Shown here: positions 6,514 through 30,971 of the stretch, piece by piece
How the letters are laid out: the number at the start of each line of letters is the position of its first letter
How positions within the stretch are numbered: the stretch's first letter is position 1
IMG/VR virus record: IMGVR_UViG_3300025736_000113
Coordinates: 1 to 30,971 of that record
Strand: one strand, 5' to 3'
DNA: 30,971 bases
DNA from: a virus
Position numbers and translations under genes: made by a program
The notes under the pieces: model-generated
The model's database searches: none
What the model was told of the DNA's origin: nothing
The model's input: the letters and a program-made list of their open reading frames with translations, nothing else

Positions 6514-6849
6514 ATGAGTGTTGCAAATTGGGGAACTAATGAGGTAAGATGGCTTGACCTTTACAAAAAGACTATTACTGAAAGTTATACAGTGATTGTT
6601 GGTGCTGACCATTACAGAGATTCTATTATTATTTGTGATGATTGTGCTGCCGATGCTACAATTACTCTGCCTGATGGTATATATATCGGTCAGAGAGTAG
6701 TCATTTTAGTTAAGTCGGATGTAAATAATAAAACTGTTACTGTTACTCCTGATAATGGTACTGGTAGTTCTTTAACTGCGGAGAATGATTTTGTTGAAGA
6801 ATTATGGTCAGGTGAAAATTGGATTAGGATAGCAAGCACAGAAACGTAA
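6514..6849 (+). CDS. Small beta-rich virion protein, 111 aa
   Basis: The ribosome site AGGAG lies before ATG 6514. The sequence alternates short strands and turns (DATITLPDGIYIGQRVVILVK, NKTVTVTPDNGTG) and ends in ELWSGENWIRIAST. That pattern is common in small phage head-decoration or fibre-tip domains that finish with a WIRI strand. No cysteine pair motif, membrane segment or enzyme motif is visible apart from CDDC at 36-39. It is likely a structural accessory, by inference. Confidence 0.55.
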   Translation: MSVANWGTNEVRWLDLYKKTITESYTVIVGADHYRDSIIICDDCAADATITLPDGIYIGQRVVILVKSDVNNKTVTVTPDNGTGSSLTAENDFVEELWSGENWIRIASTET

Positions 6850-6887
6850 AATGAAATAAATTTCCTGAATTTATGGGAGAAATTTAG

Positions 6888-7181
6888 ATGTCTGATTTAG
6901 CAAATTCTAATCTGATTATGGGTAGCACTCTATTTGGGACACAATTATTGACTATTGCAAATAATGTAGCTACTGGAACAACTCAGGCTTGTAAGAGTGT
7001 ATTGGTATTAACTGATGGTTCTGATGTTAATATGGCTGTGCAATCTTCTGGTGCTGCCGATGTTAATGATTTTCTATTGCCTGAAAAACAAGCCATACCA
7101 ATACCTGTTGATGATGTAAGTAAGTTGACGTTTTATGGTGCTACTGACGGCAAAAAGATTTATATTTTATGGCGAGGTTAA
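6888..7181 (+). CDS. Small beta-rich virion protein, 97 aa
   Basis: No specific family. The composition (Ala, Val, Thr, Asp, few charges) and strand-turn pattern, with the C-terminus LTFYGATDGKKIYILWRG, resemble small phage decoration proteins. The 6888 ATG has GGGAG upstream. The gene sits between another small beta protein and a LamG-fold protein, suggesting a set of surface-exposed virion accessories. Confidence 0.55.
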   Translation: MSDLANSNLIMGSTLFGTQLLTIANNVATGTTQACKSVLVLTDGSDVNMAVQSSGAADVNDFLLPEKQAIPIPVDDVSKLTFYGATDGKKIYILWRG

Positions 7182-23052: not shown

Positions 23053-23443
23053 TATTTAATTCCTTAACCAATTTCTTATATTTGTCTATTATTTCTTCAA
23101 GCTCATAAATCTTAAATTGTTTACAGGAATGGGCCAGATATTGAAGGTCGCTTAATTGTTTTTTAGTATAATGAGCATACATATATTCTGCAAAACCAGA
23201 CTTACTTCCTTCAAGAAATCTATTACAATACCTACATTGGGGCCAAACATTGTTCTCATTATATCTTGTTGCTGCAAACCTGCGACTTAACCAATGACCT
23301 GCATCTACATTTTTCCAATGTTCCACCTTGCTGCAAGATACACAGCGAACATATCCATCTGGAGTTGCAGACTTTCTTCTGATATATTCTGAAAATATCT
23401 TATCAGCTTTTTTCTTTAATTTACTTACAGTTTTCTTAGCCAT
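23045..23443 (-). CDS. ninG: NinG-like recombination nuclease, 132 aa
   Basis: KKADKIFSEYIRRKSA at the N-terminus, then VRCVSCSK, AGHWLSRRF, ATRYNENNVWPQC and YCNRFLEGS, form the NinG pattern of lambdoid phages: an HNH-like zinc nuclease with CxxC plus AGH...C..CN. ATG 23443 (MAKKTVSKLK) is chosen; a longer frame to 23485 lies inside the primase gene. Overlap with the primase gene is 19 bases. Known role: phage recombination, where NinG can substitute for host functions in the RecBCD/RecF setting. The placement beside primase and helicase fits. Confidence 0.82.
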   Translation of the reverse strand: MAKKTVSKLKKKADKIFSEYIRRKSATPDGYVRCVSCSKVEHWKNVDAGHWLSRRFAATRYNENNVWPQCRYCNRFLEGSKSGFAEYMYAHYTKKQLSDLQYLAHSCKQFKIYELEEIIDKYKKLVKELNNG

Positions 23444-24234
23444 TCTTCCATTGTTCCTTTTATATTGGGGTCTTTTTGTCTCCACTCTCGTACATCCTTA
23501 AATTCTATGGGTGGATTAACAACAGCCGTAGAAGCAATATTGATGGAACAAAATAGTTTCCACGCCCCATCTTCTCCAACCCTGTCATTATCCCCAACTA
23601 TTAAGGTTTTCTTAATAGTTGGATTATTTTCAATAAATTCTTCGATATATTTTGTTCCACCACTACAATTAGGACGACCAATAGCAAAGAATCCTAAATC
23701 TAAAAGAGTTGCACAATCACTGGCCCCCTCTACAATAATTAATTCTGGTTGAACACTATTGTGGGAATCATAAAATAATCCATTCTTTGAGCCACTAACA
23801 GCACACTTTCCTCCGTTAGGAAATCTTCGATGGATTCCAATTATTTCTCCCTTTTCGTCCCGCATAGGAATAGTATATGCCTTACCATCCCATCCCACAT
23901 ATAAATTGTCTAAGGTGGTAAGAGATACATTCCATTCTTTTGCCAACTCAACTAAAAAAGTATTTGCACTATCATAACCACAAGCATAATAATCATCAGC
24001 AAACTTAGTCCAATCAATAGGTGGATATTCTGGTGCTACATAAGGTTTAGATACATATTTCTCATCAAGAATGTGTAACCAACCTCCACCAAAAGGCTCT
24101 CCTATTAATTTGATTGCTCCATTTTTAACACGAGAACATAGTGCGGCTTTGCCATCACCTGTTATCAAGCAACCATCAGTTCGACCACATATATAGCAAG
24201 GATTATTTTTATTGACACGCAGCATAAGCATCAT
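23425..24234 (-). CDS. DnaG-type TOPRIM primase, 269 aa
   Basis: A zinc module with C13, C16, C22 and C33 (CYICGRTDGC...LC) lies at the N-terminus. The TOPRIM fold shows IIVEGASD (E169) and IVGDNDRVGEDG (D215, D217), which are the metal-binding residues. This is a short primase, similar to the primase half of T7 gp4. Three ATGs cluster at 24225, 24231 and 24234 with AAAGGA just upstream, so the exact start is uncertain by a few residues. The DnaB-type helicase lies directly upstream as a separate gene, so primase and helicase work here as two proteins. Confidence 0.85.
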   Translation of the reverse strand: MMLMLRVNKNNPCYICGRTDGCLITGDGKAALCSRVKNGAIKLIGEPFGGGWLHILDEKYVSKPYVAPEYPPIDWTKFADDYYACGYDSANTFLVELAKEWNVSLTTLDNLYVGWDGKAYTIPMRDEKGEIIGIHRRFPNGGKCAVSGSKNGLFYDSHNSVQPELIIVEGASDCATLLDLGFFAIGRPNCSGGTKYIEEFIENNPTIKKTLIVGDNDRVGEDGAWKLFCSINIASTAVVNPPIEFKDVREWRQKDPNIKGTMEEWLRKL

Positions 24235-24264
24235 TTCCTTTGAAAGTTAATTCAATTTTTTTCA

Positions 24265-25125
24265 CTAAAATTCCCGCCAATTGATAGGGACAAACTGCAT
24301 AGATTCACTTATCCAAACAGCCTTAGTCACACCCGTAGGCCCTTGTCTATTTTTTCCAATGATAAAATGAGATTCACCATCATCCCCCTCTCCAAAATTT
24401 CCTCCTTCCTGTTGTTTATAATAATTTGGTCTATGAATTAGAATAACTGCATCGGCATTTTGTTCTATTCCACCCGAAGAACGCAAATCACATAGCCGAG
24501 GGATATGATTTTCACGCTGGTCAGGCTGTCTATTTAATTGAGATAGAAGAACTACGGGTATATGATACATTTTGGCGATGGACTTTAACTCCTTAGTTAT
24601 ATTATCTAAATCCTGCGTAAGATTTCCTGTTGGTTTAGTTGGACTCATTAACTGGAGATAATCAATCATAATACAGCCTGATTTTTCTCCAAACTCAGTT
24701 AGTTTTTTATTAATAAAAGACGGTGAAAGATAAGATGAGTCATCTACGAATATCTTTCTGTTATCTAATATCTCCTTTGCTTTTGTTATCTTTTCCTTAT
24801 CTTGATTAGAACAATATCCAAGTTTTATATTATGATAATTTACTTTAGCAAGATTAACTAACATTCTCTCTACTATAATCTTAAAACTCATTTCCAAACT
24901 GAACAAAACTACATTTTTTTCTTTGCTAATTTCAAGGGCTGCTCCTATCATCCAGCTTGATTTTCCCATAGATGAGCGACCAGCTACCACAATTAGTTCA
25001 TCATTTTGTAACCCACACAGTTTTTCATCCAATGATGGCAAATTTGTTGATAGTCCCATTGAATTTACTGAGATATTTTCAGCAATATCATTTAATCTGG
25101 TTTTTATATCAGTAATAGATTCCAC
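24265..25125 (-). CDS. DnaB-type replicative helicase (RecA domain only), 286 aa
   Basis: The Walker A loop is GRSSMGKSS (K55), followed by the catalytic-type Glu in FSLEMS (E78), Walker B IMIDYLQL (D154), LSQLNR with the sensor Gln (Q195), and the C-terminal GKNRQGPTG loop. These match the RecA-like C-terminal domain of DnaB. At 286 residues it lacks the N-terminal primase-interaction domain of full DnaB (about 450 residues). The start is GTG 25125 with GGA 8-9 bases upstream and a TAA just before. It should unwind DNA at the phage fork. Confidence 0.88.
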   Translation of the reverse strand: MESITDIKTRLNDIAENISVNSMGLSTNLPSLDEKLCGLQNDELIVVAGRSSMGKSSWMIGAALEISKEKNVVLFSLEMSFKIIVERMLVNLAKVNYHNIKLGYCSNQDKEKITKAKEILDNRKIFVDDSSYLSPSFINKKLTEFGEKSGCIMIDYLQLMSPTKPTGNLTQDLDNITKELKSIAKMYHIPVVLLSQLNRQPDQRENHIPRLCDLRSSGGIEQNADAVILIHRPNYYKQQEGGNFGEGDDGESHFIIGKNRQGPTGVTKAVWISESMQFVPINWREF

Positions 25126-27076: not shown

Positions 27077-27230
27077 TTATAAATCCCCTTTCAAAATCTT
27101 CATAATCAAATTCACCAAAATATCCATGACTACAAAATTCACAGGTATATTCTTCACCATCTAATAGTGGAATATCTATGTCATACCAAATTAAACATGT
27201 TGAACATTGAACACTGTATTTTTTATACAT
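27069..27230 (-). CDS. Tiny zinc-ribbon protein, 53 aa
   Basis: ATG 27230 (MYKKYSVQC) has AAAGG about 9 bases upstream; the frame extends further but inside the nuclease gene. Cysteines occur as CSTC (9-12) and CEFC (30-33), a rubredoxin-like zinc ribbon. The C-terminus is acidic. It overlaps both neighbours by 8 bases. One of several very small zinc proteins in this operon; role unknown. Confidence 0.62.
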   Translation of the reverse strand: MYKKYSVQCSTCLIWYDIDIPLLDGEEYTCEFCSHGYFGEFDYEDFERGFINE

Positions 27231-28167
27231 AAGGACATACCTTTCGACAAACACAGTAAGACTCACATTTTACATTAGAACCCTTATGTTCTTCAATGGA
27301 ATAACCGGTTTTTAATTTTCCCTCTGTGAGCAATCCCTTTTCCGCAGCATAAAACTTTATATGTTCTTCACTATCTTCATTTTTAACAGATGTTTTGCGT
27401 CCTTCCTTTTTTAACTTCCACACACTTTTTCTTGTCCATTTCTCTTCAGGAGTACATTCTGTTGCAGGGGCAAGATGTAATCTAATTCTCTCCTTAATAT
27501 ATTTTTCTTGTTTTTCAAAACCCCAATTAGGAATTGAGAATCTCATAAAACTTGTTTTTGGATAATCCCAATCAACAGTTTTGCTCTTCATCCAGTCTCT
27601 TAAAATTGCTTCAATGTATAATTGTTTTGGTTGACAAATATCAGGCAAGTTTTCTTTTTGAATATGTTTAGTAACAAGCCAAGCATAAACATTAAGTTGT
27701 GCTTCCCACTCAGGTTTGTCCCCCAACAGAAAAGAATAGACGGAAGTAAATTTGAAATCCTCCAATGTTCCTGTTGTAGTATCATATCTATCAAGTCTAC
27801 CACTTAAAGTAATTCCATCAATAACATGCTCCAAGTGTTTTTCTGCCCAAACATGTTCAGAAAGGCCATTAAATATACTAAGAACTTTTTCCCCAATTTC
27901 AGTTAATTCTAAGGAACTGTTTACAATGGATTTAATTTTGGAATAGACATCAGGTTCAAAAACTCTGTGTCCCATTTTTCCCAGCAAACTCCACAATCTA
28001 TCTGAAGCATCTTCTTCTAACTCATTCCAATGCTTTAACATCAACTGCCGTTGCAGAGGTGCATTTATTAAATGAGTTATCCAAATTTTATCGGGTTTGG
28101 GGCTGTAGGTATCACTCAAAACACCATACACACTTTGTGGAAGATTGTAATTGTTAGTAATTTTCAT
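27223..28167 (-). CDS. PD-(D/E)XK exonuclease (RecB/Cas4-like), 314 aa
   Basis: The catalytic pattern is clear: LSGRLDRYD (motif II Asp), LEDFKFTS (D/E-x-K), and QLNVYAWLV (the QxxxY helix) around residues 125-165, as in RecB-family phage exonucleases. The C-terminus has four cysteines as CESYCVCRKVC, which could hold an iron-sulphur or zinc centre as in Cas4/AddB types, but no N-terminal partner cysteine is seen. ATG 28167 is used; TTG 28185 lacks a ribosome site. Likely role: end resection in phage recombination, with NinB-like and NinG-like partners in the same operon. Confidence 0.78.
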   Translation of the reverse strand: MKITNNYNLPQSVYGVLSDTYSPKPDKIWITHLINAPLQRQLMLKHWNELEEDASDRLWSLLGKMGHRVFEPDVYSKIKSIVNSSLELTEIGEKVLSIFNGLSEHVWAEKHLEHVIDGITLSGRLDRYDTTTGTLEDFKFTSVYSFLLGDKPEWEAQLNVYAWLVTKHIQKENLPDICQPKQLYIEAILRDWMKSKTVDWDYPKTSFMRFSIPNWGFEKQEKYIKERIRLHLAPATECTPEEKWTRKSVWKLKKEGRKTSVKNEDSEEHIKFYAAEKGLLTEGKLKTGYSIEEHKGSNVKCESYCVCRKVCPYV

Positions 28168-28199
28168 TTTCTGCTTCTTCTCCAATATTTTATCAATAA

Positions 28200-28521: not shown

Positions 28522-29169
28522 TTATTCACTTGAGATACTTAATTCTGAAGCCAATAAGTTTAATTGTATATCATAATCAATAGGCATATTTCGTAGGTAT
28601 TTTGTAAACTGTGTTATCATAAATCCTGCTGCGATATTTGCACAATAGATAGTAGTTTTTGCAGTACAAGCACCCACAAATGCCTCTTCAGAACTAAATA
28701 ATGTAGTTGGGTAATGTTTTTTAGATTCATAGTCATAAGCTGTTATAATCCTTACTGATTCTGCTGTCATTCTACCATCAACAATAAAATCTGTTTTGTT
28801 TTCTAATGCTTTCCAGATAAAACCTCTTGTTTTGATTTTGTCCACACATACAAAAACTGCTTTCCCAATATCAGGTGTGTTTTTGCAAAATCGACCGTTC
28901 ACCAACCCAATACTTATGCCGCTGTTGATGTTTTGACAGAGTTTATTGGTAGCCACAGTTTTTAGTTCATTTAGATTTTCTTCAAGATAGCCTTGACTTG
29001 CTAAATTACTTTCCTCTACAATATCAAAATCAATAAGTTGCAAGGAAACGCCCATCGCTGCTAATTGTAAAGCAACCTGTCTGCCAATAGCACCTATACC
29101 AATGACAGTAACTTTGTTAATTTTCTCAAGAGGTACAATATCTTCTTGCCTGCTATATCTTTCACTCAT
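28522..29169 (-). CDS. ThiF/E1-like adenylyltransferase, 215 aa
   Basis: The nucleotide-binding loop VIGIGAIGRQ (G24, G26, G29), LIDFDIVEESNL (D47, D49, N55) and the upstream RYSRQ match E1/ThiF/MoeB enzymes, which adenylate the C-terminus of a ubiquitin-like or sulphur-carrier protein. A cysteine at 168 (GACTAKTTIYC) sits where E1-type enzymes carry the catalytic Cys. The arginine normally found in SNLxRQ is replaced by Ser (NLASQG), a variation I have seen in phage and plasmid ThiF-like proteins. The start is ATG 29169. The 215-residue length means no separate E2-binding domain. Works with the JAB and E2-like genes directly upstream. Confidence 0.85.
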   Translation of the reverse strand: MSERYSRQEDIVPLEKINKVTVIGIGAIGRQVALQLAAMGVSLQLIDFDIVEESNLASQGYLEENLNELKTVATNKLCQNINSGISIGLVNGRFCKNTPDIGKAVFVCVDKIKTRGFIWKALENKTDFIVDGRMTAESVRIITAYDYESKKHYPTTLFSSEEAFVGACTAKTTIYCANIAAGFMITQFTKYLRNMPIDYDIQLNLLASELSISSE

Positions 29170-29178
29170 ACTATTCCC

Positions 29179-29922
29179 CTATCCACTATATCCATAATTA
29201 TTATAGTCCTGTTCTCCTTCATCTGATGAAAGATACTCATCATCCCTTTTTGCTTCACCCGATGAAAGATAGTCATCAAACTCTTCATCCGTCATTAGTG
29301 CTATGTCAGGTTGATAATATTCATCAAATTGATGATGTTCATTAAGAGGAACATACCGTTTTATTACCCCACCCCCCCTCTCGTCTGATACAGTGTATTT
29401 CTTAGACAGTATTTTCTCTTCTTCAACATTAGTTTCATAATCTAAATCCCAAAGTTTGTGATTGCTTTTCTCAAAATCACGGCTATAATCTACTTTCATT
29501 GATATTGGTGTATTTCCACTAATACCCGCGTTAAACATCAAGTTAGTAAAAACTTTATTATCCTGTGCCAAAATAAACATTATAGCCCATTGACATTTTC
29601 CAAAAACCCTCTGAAAAGTATCTTTATCGACCGAACTTGGCAAGGGTGAGTCTCCTGGATGTGTGTGTAGCCAAATCCTCGCAAACTGTTCAGGTTTTCT
29701 GCTTAAATCAACCTGTTTATCGAAGAAATCAGCTACTGATTCGTCATCAAACTTTACTGTTGCAAGGCTAACCCTTTGTTTGATTATTACAAAATCGGTG
29801 ATGTAAAGCAAGTCATCAGGACTTGTAATACCAAACCCACTCACTTCATTTTTAGATTTATCCCTGTAATATATTAACTTTGCCCAAGCTGTCGGATTAA
29901 ACCTCAGTACTGGGTTTTTCAT
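29179..29922 (-). CDS. JAMM/JAB-domain isopeptidase, 247 aa
   Basis: The metalloprotease signature is complete: NEVSGFG with E26, then H86-T-H88-P and S96/S97 with D99, which is the H-x-H-x10-D spacing of JAMM enzymes. These cut ubiquitin-like proteins from conjugates or mature their C-termini. AAGGAGG lies 6 bases before ATG 29922; the longer frame to 29961 is inside the E2-like gene. The last 45 residues are acidic and repetitive (DDYLSSGEAKR, DDEYLSSDEGEQD), a tail not usual in the family. It overlaps the E2-like gene by 26 bases. Confidence 0.88.
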   Translation of the reverse strand: MKNPVLRFNPTAWAKLIYYRDKSKNEVSGFGITSPDDLLYITDFVIIKQRVSLATVKFDDESVADFFDKQVDLSRKPEQFARIWLHTHPGDSPLPSSVDKDTFQRVFGKCQWAIMFILAQDNKVFTNLMFNAGISGNTPISMKVDYSRDFEKSNHKLWDLDYETNVEEEKILSKKYTVSDERGGGVIKRYVPLNEHHQFDEYYQPDIALMTDEEFDDYLSSGEAKRDDEYLSSDEGEQDYNNYGYSG

Positions 29923-30928
29923 TTTCTTCCTCCTTTTCAGCACATTCTTCACATAGTTCATCCTCGTTTATACAACCAGGACAGAAAAACTGACCACAAC
30001 CTTCACATCTTGTTAAACAACTTTTACAATACACACCCCCACAACATTCACATACAAAACTACAGTCATCACAAATATCATTACCACAATTACTACATGT
30101 AGTTGAGCAACTACTACAAATATGTCTACCACAAATAGAGCAGAGGTTTATACACTCATCACAATACGAACCACCACAAATAGAGCACACAACCACACAT
30201 TGGTCGCAGAATCGTTCTTCACAGCCCTCACAAATATAAATATCTTCACTATTAGTACTTTCTCCACAATTACAACATTCTATACCAAACCAATCCTCTA
30301 ATGATATATAAGGACTTTCTGGATTATATGTTTCTAAAATGCTTTTGATTATCAAAAAGAAGTCGGCAATTCTGCCATTTTTTAATGCACTGCCTATGGG
30401 TACGGTTCCATTTCCTTCACAAAGATGTCCATTTCTTATGTGTGGATGTGTAACACCTTCATCCCCATGAGCAGGGTTTGGATTAACAGCTTCAATATAA
30501 TATAGGTGGTCTGTATTATGTAAGTCTATAACTATCTTAAATTCTCCGAGCGGTATATCTTCAAGAGTTATCGCTTCAGTTATTACAGATAATTTATTGT
30601 CTATGAAAGTTACTTGTCCGAACTCTTTTTCTAACTGTTTTAATTCATCAATTAAATCATATATGTCTGGAATATACGATTTTTTATGGTTTATTACTTC
30701 TCTTTTCGTATAACAATGTAACACATCTATGGCTCTCATCATTTGAGCCAATTTTATCTGTTTAGCAAATATCAAATCATGTTCTTCGGCTTTAAGATAC
30801 GTTACAATACACCCATTAAAATACTCACTTGTATTTTTGAGATATTGTGCAACGGGGCGAAAGTCAATATCATTTATTTTTGCTTTGTTTTGGTACGCTT
30901 CTCTTAATTTTAGTGCTATTTTTATCAT
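29897..30928 (-). CDS. E2-like conjugating protein fused to a six-unit cysteine-repeat domain, 343 aa
   Basis: The N-terminal part (1-215) contains a beta-sheet core (EFKIVIDLHN, HLYYIEAVNP) followed by THPHIRNGHLCEGNG, with C170 placed like the active cysteine of E2 enzymes in the HPN...C motif. Bacterial and phage E2-like proteins often use HPH. From 218 on, CCNC leads into six consecutive 15-residue units (232-321) of the form CxxCGxxxCxxC, then LCEEC and an acidic tail. RING or treble-clef zinc domains have such CxxC pairs, so this may be an E3-like partner in the same chain. ATG 30928 is preceded by GGGGAT. Its order with JAB and E1 genes fits prokaryotic ubiquitin-like cassettes. Confidence 0.75.
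   Translation of the reverse strand: MIKIALKLREAYQNKAKINDIDFRPVAQYLKNTSEYFNGCIVTYLKAEEHDLIFAKQIKLAQMMRAIDVLHCYTKREVINHKKSYIPDIYDLIDELKQLEKEFGQVTFIDNKLSVITEAITLEDIPLGEFKIVIDLHNTDHLYYIEAVNPNPAHGDEGVTHPHIRNGHLCEGNGTVPIGSALKNGRIADFFLIIKSILETYNPESPYISLEDWFGIECCNCGESTNSEDIYICEGCEERFCDQCVVVCSICGGSYCDECINLCSICGRHICSSCSTTCSNCGNDICDDCSFVCECCGGVYCKSCLTRCEGCGQFFCPGCINEDELCEECAEKEEENEKPSTEV
29966..30235 (-). repeat. Six in-frame 45-bp repeats encoding CxxCGxxxCxxC units
   Basis: Residues 232-321 of the E2-like protein are six 15-residue units in register; examples are VCSICGGSYCDECIN, LCSICGRHICSSCST and VCECCGGVYCKSCLT. Every unit has four cysteines at identical spacing (C-x2-C-x4-C-x2-C). The DNA copies differ widely, so this is an old or selected repeat, not a recent slippage. 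Confidence 0.9.
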
Positions 30929-30971
30929 TTTCTAATCCCCAAAATATATGCACTCCTGCTCACTTTCAAAG

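Follow-up and report, generated by a model that had tools for sequence, protein, structure and literature searches.

We found that the DNA analysed here, a 30,971-bp virus record representing a viral fragment (the window), probably carries a self-contained and reversible operon for conjugation of a ubiquitin-like protein (Ubl), which lies among the replication genes of a phage and would have been captured from a mobile operon of planctomycete type. Genes for an E2-like protein, a JAMM metalloprotease and an E1-like adenylyltransferase were contiguous on the minus strand (28522-30928), and with a Ubl gene located on an overlapping contig the order of the cassette was Ubl-E2-JAMM-E1. The features were as follows.

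23425 to 25125, minus strand: primase-like and DnaB-like helicase genes (phrog_239, phrog_19), context of the cassette.
27223 to 28185, minus strand: PD-(D/E)XK exonuclease (phrog_2139, 5.7e-31), downstream of and outside the cassette.
28522 to 29169, minus strand: E1/ThiF-like adenylyltransferase, 215 aa, with GIGAIG at residues 24-29 and an invariant C168.
29179 to 29922, minus strand: JAMM/MPN+ metalloprotease, 247 aa.
29626 to 29667, minus strand: JAMM motif HTHPGDSPLPSSVD (H86, H88, S96, D99), these residues being invariant.
29897 to 30928, minus strand: E2-like protein, 343 aa, with a helical N-terminus, a putative UBC domain at about residues 93-215 and a zinc array at residues 216-337; HPH and Cys invariant in 20 aligned homologues.
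29942 to 30283, minus strand: zinc array of the E2-like protein, 30 Cys in a 15-residue repeat, C-x2-C-x4-C-x2-C-x3.
30419 to 30448, minus strand: putative E2 active-site motif HPHIRNGHLC, residues 161-170.
30945 to 30971, minus strand: hairpin arm at the contig end; in the overlapping contig (L002) the hairpin lies between Ubl and E2, and the arm is inverted relative to L002.
L002, 5720 to 5941: Ubl gene, 73 aa, with an AGGAGG site ahead of it and a 59-bp gap between it and the E2 gene that follows.

The initial annotation had read three adjacent minus-strand genes as E2-, JAMM- and E1-type enzymes beside phage replication genes. This was borne out by the gene coordinates and by the residues on which it was based, namely H161-P162-H163 and C170 in the 343-aa protein, E26, H86, H88 and D99 in the JAMM protein, and G24, G26, G29 (GxGxxG) and C168 in the E1. 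The JAMM residues are numbered from the ATG at 29922, which follows an AAGGAGG ribosome-binding site and yields a protein of 247 aa (260 aa in the program-made list of reading frames). The E2-like and JAMM genes overlap by 26 bp, and the DnaB-like helicase, primase-like and exonuclease genes lie on the same strand as the cassette.

The E1 matched Pfam ThiF at 1e-16, and C168 was invariant among its aligned relatives, as expected of an E1-like adenylation domain with a catalytic cysteine. As a single sequence the JAMM protein gave only a weak match to Prok-JAB (18 bits, below cut-off); an 18-sequence profile matched RPN11 at 3e-4, the best solved relatives were RPN11, and a match to the Rpn11 homologue of Caldiarchaeum was obtained. 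E26, H86, H88, S96 and D99 were invariant in the alignment, so that the metal site of a JAB/JAMM enzyme is intact.

Since the window extends only 43 bp beyond the first codon of the E2 gene, the Ubl gene falls outside it. The initial annotation had pointed to the sequence past position 30971 as the place to look for a small ubiquitin-like gene, and a scan with the 343-aa protein returned a 13.7-kb contig ending inside the same gene, on which the 73-aa Ubl was found. Identity between the window and this contig extends over 124 bases, with an inverted hairpin arm as the outermost 22, and the linkage of the Ubl to the cassette is to be read with this in mind. The inversion of the arm between contigs (window 30945-30971; L002:5944-5978) may be an assembly snap-back or a real inversion. 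The Ubl-bearing contig also encodes DNA polymerase A, and a large opposite-strand reading frame on it, which had no Pfam match, reads like a large terminase subunit.

The match of the Ubl to ThiS was weak. A profile of the Ubl and five relatives (A6) matched SAMP2 at 2.4e-4, and this match was lost with a later profile (A12). The AlphaFold model was a beta-grasp fold (pLDDT 85.6), for which Foldseek returned Caldiarchaeum ubiquitin as best match, followed by SUMO and MoaD-type folds. The protein ends in KIEGA, with a candidate junction KIEG|A, and in all 24 planctomycete-type Ubls detected the junction KI[DE]G was followed by a variable tail (among others A, AE, AGC, ALR, ACRLGQQTA and ARDNKPVVICAKR). 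A fixed glycine followed by a tail that is free to vary is what would be expected if the JAMM enzyme trims a precursor form at this point, and is the strongest single piece of sequence evidence for the mechanism proposed here. A beta-grasp Ubl with a C-terminal glycine junction, an E1-like adenylation domain with a catalytic cysteine and a JAB/JAMM enzyme with an intact metal site, all of which the cassette has, are hallmarks of prokaryotic Ubl conjugation systems (Iyer/Burroughs/Aravind), as is a UBC-fold E2 with His and Cys, for which the evidence is given below.

In the proposed mechanism the 73-aa Ubl would be synthesised in a precursor form with the terminus KIEG|A, from which the JAMM enzyme would remove the residue after Gly72. 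The E1 would then adenylate the exposed glycine and take the Ubl on C168, and the E2 would receive it on C170 and pass it to lysines, while the zinc array, being part of the same polypeptide as the E2, might take the role of an independent E3 and keep the substrate or the E2~Ubl in position. The JAMM enzyme could later cut the tag off its targets, and the proteins modified in this way would belong to the infected cell or to a competing phage. The position of the cassette within the replication genes points to expression during the replication stage of infection. We infer the catalysis, the E3 role, the targets and the benefit, and the steps most likely follow the established chemistry of these families.

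The origin of the cassette was indicated by a genome scan which returned 64 loci, mostly in Planctomycetota; at least 23 loci, most of them planctomycete, had Ubl, E2, JAMM and E1 genes in that order. The initial annotation had proposed a comparison of operons, and the related operons do contain the JAMM and E1 genes. The planctomycete operons (L042-L101) share the gene order, the zinc array and the KI[DE]G junction of the window cassette, with identities to it of up to 63% for E1, up to 67% for JAMM, 51-63% for Ubl and 38-50% for the E2 domain. They differ in lying on bacterial contigs or chromosomes, often in several copies, and in that many have upstream a TOPRIM-like gene and an AAA gene, or other partners, which are absent from the window phage. 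A tree of E1 sequences grouped the window E1 with eight planctomycete rows in a set of nine (support 98/90, the bootstrap values being rough), with another viral contig (L011) at the base of the group. This placement is explained more simply by capture of the genes by the phage, and as the third-position GC of the cassette is close to that of other genes of the phage this capture would not be recent. The phage terminase had no match in 294 planctomycete genomes, and neither this search nor the CRISPR spacers described below linked the phage to a host.

Two types of planctomycete operon were distinguished by their partners. Group A operons carry upstream a TOPRIM-like gene and an AAA ATPase whose best matches were CDC48, PAN, IteA and FtsH, and group B operons, which are closer to the window, have different partners that are uncharacterised in function. 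The window phage retains the four core genes only. Multi-copy modules with the order TOPRIM-like, CDC48/PAN-like AAA, uncharacterised protein of about 315 aa and Ubl-E2-JAMM-E1 (L108-L111 and L113 in genome G251; L063, L075, L077, L085) are a candidate conflict system, and the presence of an unfoldase next to the Ubl genes may mean that these bacteria remodel proteins once they are tagged.

One explanation of the role of the phage cassette is that it serves counter-defence or takeover, in that the phage would use the core conjugation genes from a planctomycete conflict operon to modify or jam host factors, the TOPRIM-like and CDC48/PAN-like AAA partners having been left behind at capture. It would account for the joining of TOPRIM-like, AAA and Ubl genes in group A, and for the result that seven group A and B partner proteins gave no significant tblastn match in the window and L003 (best E 0.21); a related Ubl system has moreover been tied to FtsH-ternary conflict systems (Kaur et al. 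2020, PMC7159879). Against it, a defence role of the planctomycete operons is itself conjectural, and group B, with its functionally uncharacterised partners, comprises the closest kin of the window. We regard this explanation as possible, though short of an even chance, and as about equally likely as the exclusion of rival phages considered below.

More distant relatives, with an E1-JAMM pair and in most cases an E2-like and a Ubl gene as well, were found in crAss-like, Flavobacterium and many uncultured phages; cultured phages of Flavobacterium psychrophilum and crAss-like phages of Bacteroides are among those that carry the distant cassette. A search with the E1 returned crAss-like phages, Flavobacterium Fipvunavirus, Dulem virus 41, a bajarodcaudo virus and a jumbo Xanthomonas phage. 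Alignment A1 was too divergent for pattern searches; an E1 pair alignment (A4) succeeded and returned 31 further viral loci. A JAMM gene was near the E1 in 37 of the 38 phage or viral E1 loci, mostly directly adjoining it, and a reading frame with the pattern H[PS]H..C was present in about 21 of them. Taken with the 23 ordered planctomycete-type loci, this co-occurrence goes beyond chance. The exception, Xanthomonas PhiXhv, had a Ubl ending in GG and no JAMM was seen, which fits a requirement for JAMM in maturation. Ubl-like, E2-like (HSH..C), JAMM and E1 genes followed one another in this order in the crAss-like, Flavobacterium, Dulem and bajarodcaudo records, with a uracil-DNA glycosylase close to the cassette, and an exonuclease lay downstream of the cassette in the crAss-like records and Dulem virus 41. 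The best phage E1 other than that of the window was 37% identical. Scans of viral contigs with the E2, Ubl and E1 as single proteins returned only the overlapping contig or nothing, and tblastn with the E2, JAMM and Ubl in phage records found no relatives. A match in a Listeria phage (L008) was rejected as an ordinary MoeB in a molybdenum-cofactor cluster. In the records with Ubl/E2/JAMM/E1 sets (L004, L009 and L010, crAss-like and bajarodcaudo; L005, Flavobacterium phage Fpv3; L006 and L007) the Ubl and E2 had been deposited as hypothetical and the E1 mostly as a thiamine biosynthesis or ThiF protein.

Bacterial Ubl conjugation has so far been linked mainly to antiphage defence. Tentatively, and with rather less than even confidence, we propose that complete Ubl pathways serve as a core tool of infection in tailed phages from many lineages, among them crAss-like, Flavobacterium, jumbo Xanthomonas and planctomycete-type phages, and that in the present branch E2 and a zinc E3-like part form one polypeptide. 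Prokaryotic Ubl conjugation as such is known (Iyer 2006, PMC1779556), as are Bil (reviewed in PMC11354881) and the FtsH-ternary Ubl systems (PMC7159879). As far as the surveyed literature shows, the complete phage-borne set, the fusion of E2 and zinc array with a free Ubl, and the wide spread in phages appear to be new; the planctomycete operons may have been described earlier, for example in the 2011/2012 Burroughs papers. In the crAss literature searched, ubiquitin was mentioned only in one unrelated review. The fused zinc array, the planctomycete origin and the spread of such sets in phages also go beyond the initial annotation. Here a complete set belongs to a phage, and its components are found again in crAss-like and other phages, for the most part under the annotation thiamine biosynthesis or hypothetical. 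It thereby becomes testable what a phage tags and who benefits. The invariant glycine junction offers a ready JAMM substrate, and the E2-zinc fusion a compact system for studying the rise of E3 function.

The likeness to Bil and PRTRC systems which the initial annotation had suggested was upheld as a resemblance in kind but not as membership, no model scoring above its cut-off. In Bil, as in the cassette, Ubl, E2, JAMM and E1 are four separate adjacent genes; the Bil JAMM enzyme exposes the C-terminal glycine (PMC11354881), as is proposed for the one here. BilA however has two Ubl domains where the cassette has a single Ubl; BilD has an inactive and an active half plus a Cys domain, whereas the cassette E1 is a single ThiF domain of 215 aa; and BilB has a CEHH motif with histidines after the Cys, whereas the E2-like protein has HPH before the Cys and a zinc array. 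In PRTRC (Iyer type 6d) systems Ubl, JAB, E1 and E2 are likewise separate genes on mobile elements, but the E2 is without the classical His and the JAB has an N-terminal domain; the PRTRC_ThiF model TIGR03736 gave 20.6 bits with the window and 28 bits with L042 against a cut-off of 144.75. FtsH-ternary Ubl systems, also found in planctomycetes, combine JAB, E1, E2, Ubl and a RING-type zinc E3 (Kaur et al. 2020, PMC7159879), and relatives of the cassette similarly adjoin an AAA ATPase with FtsH among its best matches. Those systems have a fusion of Ubl with E2 and EAD1, a double-FtsH AAA, and separate RING and vWA/MoxR genes, unlike the free Ubl and the E2-zinc fusion seen here; one planctomycete AAA partner had no tblastn match in the window and L003, and the cassette was not assigned to this class. 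The Caldiarchaeum cascade (PMC5654768) resembles the cassette in its separate Ubl, E1, E2, RING and Rpn11-like JAMM, and differs in its separate small RING, its eukaryote-like E2 and E1, and its archaeal origin. Lambdoid TAPI/TAPK also pair a phage Ubl with a JAB peptidase (PMC1779556), but are without E1 or E2 and belong to tail assembly. For CBASS, in which Cap2, an E1-E2 fusion, and Cap3 lie beside a CD-NTase, the Cap3 model scored 18.7 bits against a threshold of 200, and the E1 and E2 of the cassette are encoded by separate genes.

These comparisons bear on the second explanation of the role, in which the same chemistry would be directed at a rival phage, the cassette being a Bil-type antiphage system for superinfection exclusion that spoils virions by placing Ubl on structural proteins of the competitor. 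The four-component set is that of BilABCD, where the JAMM enzyme trims BilA (PMC11354881), and the chromosomal relatives have a patchy distribution, with the JAMM gene in 10 of 294 sampled planctomycete genomes, up to six copies per chromosome (in G251), and transposases and recombinases in the vicinity. One planctomycete copy also lies a few kb from a CRISPR array (L112:226-1465, 19 repeats, GTCGCTCCC...ATTGAAAC), whose spacers gave no match to the window. On the other hand, the BilA, BilB and BilC profiles had no match to the cassette, and the BilD match spanned the adenylation domain only (15.6 bits with the window; 26.7 and 22.9 bits with E1s from planctomycetes). The genes moreover lie among replication genes, an arrangement shared with crAss-like phages, in which the position is conserved, and this suits a core function over exchangeable defence cargo. 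Exclusion of rivals is in our view unlikely, at perhaps one chance in a few.

Whichever role applies, the conjugation mechanism depends on the 343-aa protein being an E2, and motif, neighbourhood and profile evidence taken together make this very probable. The HPH and Cys were present not only in the 20 aligned homologues but as a motif in 44 planctomycete-type loci. Eukaryotic E2s have the active-site pattern HPNxxxxGxICLDIL, with which HPHVNTDGYLCLGD in L011 aligns very nearly, and the helix after the active site ends in YNPxxP where E2s show DPNPxxP. To compare profiles we used five human E2s as reference and 150 column shuffles. The window and L011 together scored 38.4 (shuffle maximum 21.3) and a phage profile without the window 33.1 (shuffle maximum 22.2); the window alone scored 18.0 (shuffles 22.2), a planctomycete-only profile 18.1, not above its shuffles (24.7), and a 20-row mixed profile only 24.0. 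Control comparisons gave nothing, and a profile search of the PDB returned only UBE2A/B, at E 0.5. As these subsets were tried successively, the best score is not to be taken alone.

The alternative, in which a zinc-array protein uses its HPH and Cys to bind metal or substrate and the E1 transfers the Ubl directly, would agree with the failure of the planctomycete-only profile, with the lack of E2 family matches and with the poor model of the domain. The 343-aa protein had no E2 match in Pfam, PHROG, NCBIfam or PADLOC; the 20-row profile found no E2 in the PDB, and a single UQ_con match in phage records was rejected since it lay in an interrupted frame. The AlphaFold model of the full protein with nine sequences was poor in the UBC part (pLDDT about 35-60). 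Foldseek with this low-confidence E2-domain model placed E2 enzymes at the top of the list, individually non-significant, and no UBC fold was present among the VIA matches listed; because the model is poor there, neither was counted as proof. The zinc array was modelled better (pLDDT mostly 80-90), with a weak resemblance to FYVE/RIM-type zinc fingers, and 8-11 CxxC pairs were kept in nearly all planctomycete homologues. Against this alternative stand the alignment of the L011 motif and downstream helix with those of eukaryotic E2s and the two profile scores above their shuffles, and we consider it improbable.

A sulfur carrier of ThiS/MoaD-ThiF-JAMM type, serving cofactor, cysteine or tRNA thiolation beside an unrelated HPH-C zinc protein, is the least probable explanation. 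In its favour, the Ubl resembles ThiS/MoaD and SAMP2, the E1 is ThiF-like, and operons for sulfur assimilation are known that combine JAMM, a ThiS-like protein and E1 (Iyer 2006, PMC1779556). Against it, we noticed no rhodanese, ThiG/MoaE or sulfur gene close to the cassette or to its relatives, and the HPH-x-C protein is a constant partner whose active-site region can be aligned with that of eukaryotic E2s.

Further reading frames were observed at some of the viral loci. One of about 370-390 aa, resembling a reverse transcriptase, lay downstream of the E1 in L016, L021, L022, L024, L026, L027 and L030, an association with the Ubl cassette that was seen in one phage branch. In L011 a second small beta-grasp-like reading frame of 69 aa directly followed the E1 (6783-6992), and in L012 (1007-4226) two E2-like reading frames in tandem, the first with HPH..C and the second with CPH...C, lay upstream of the JAMM and E1 genes.
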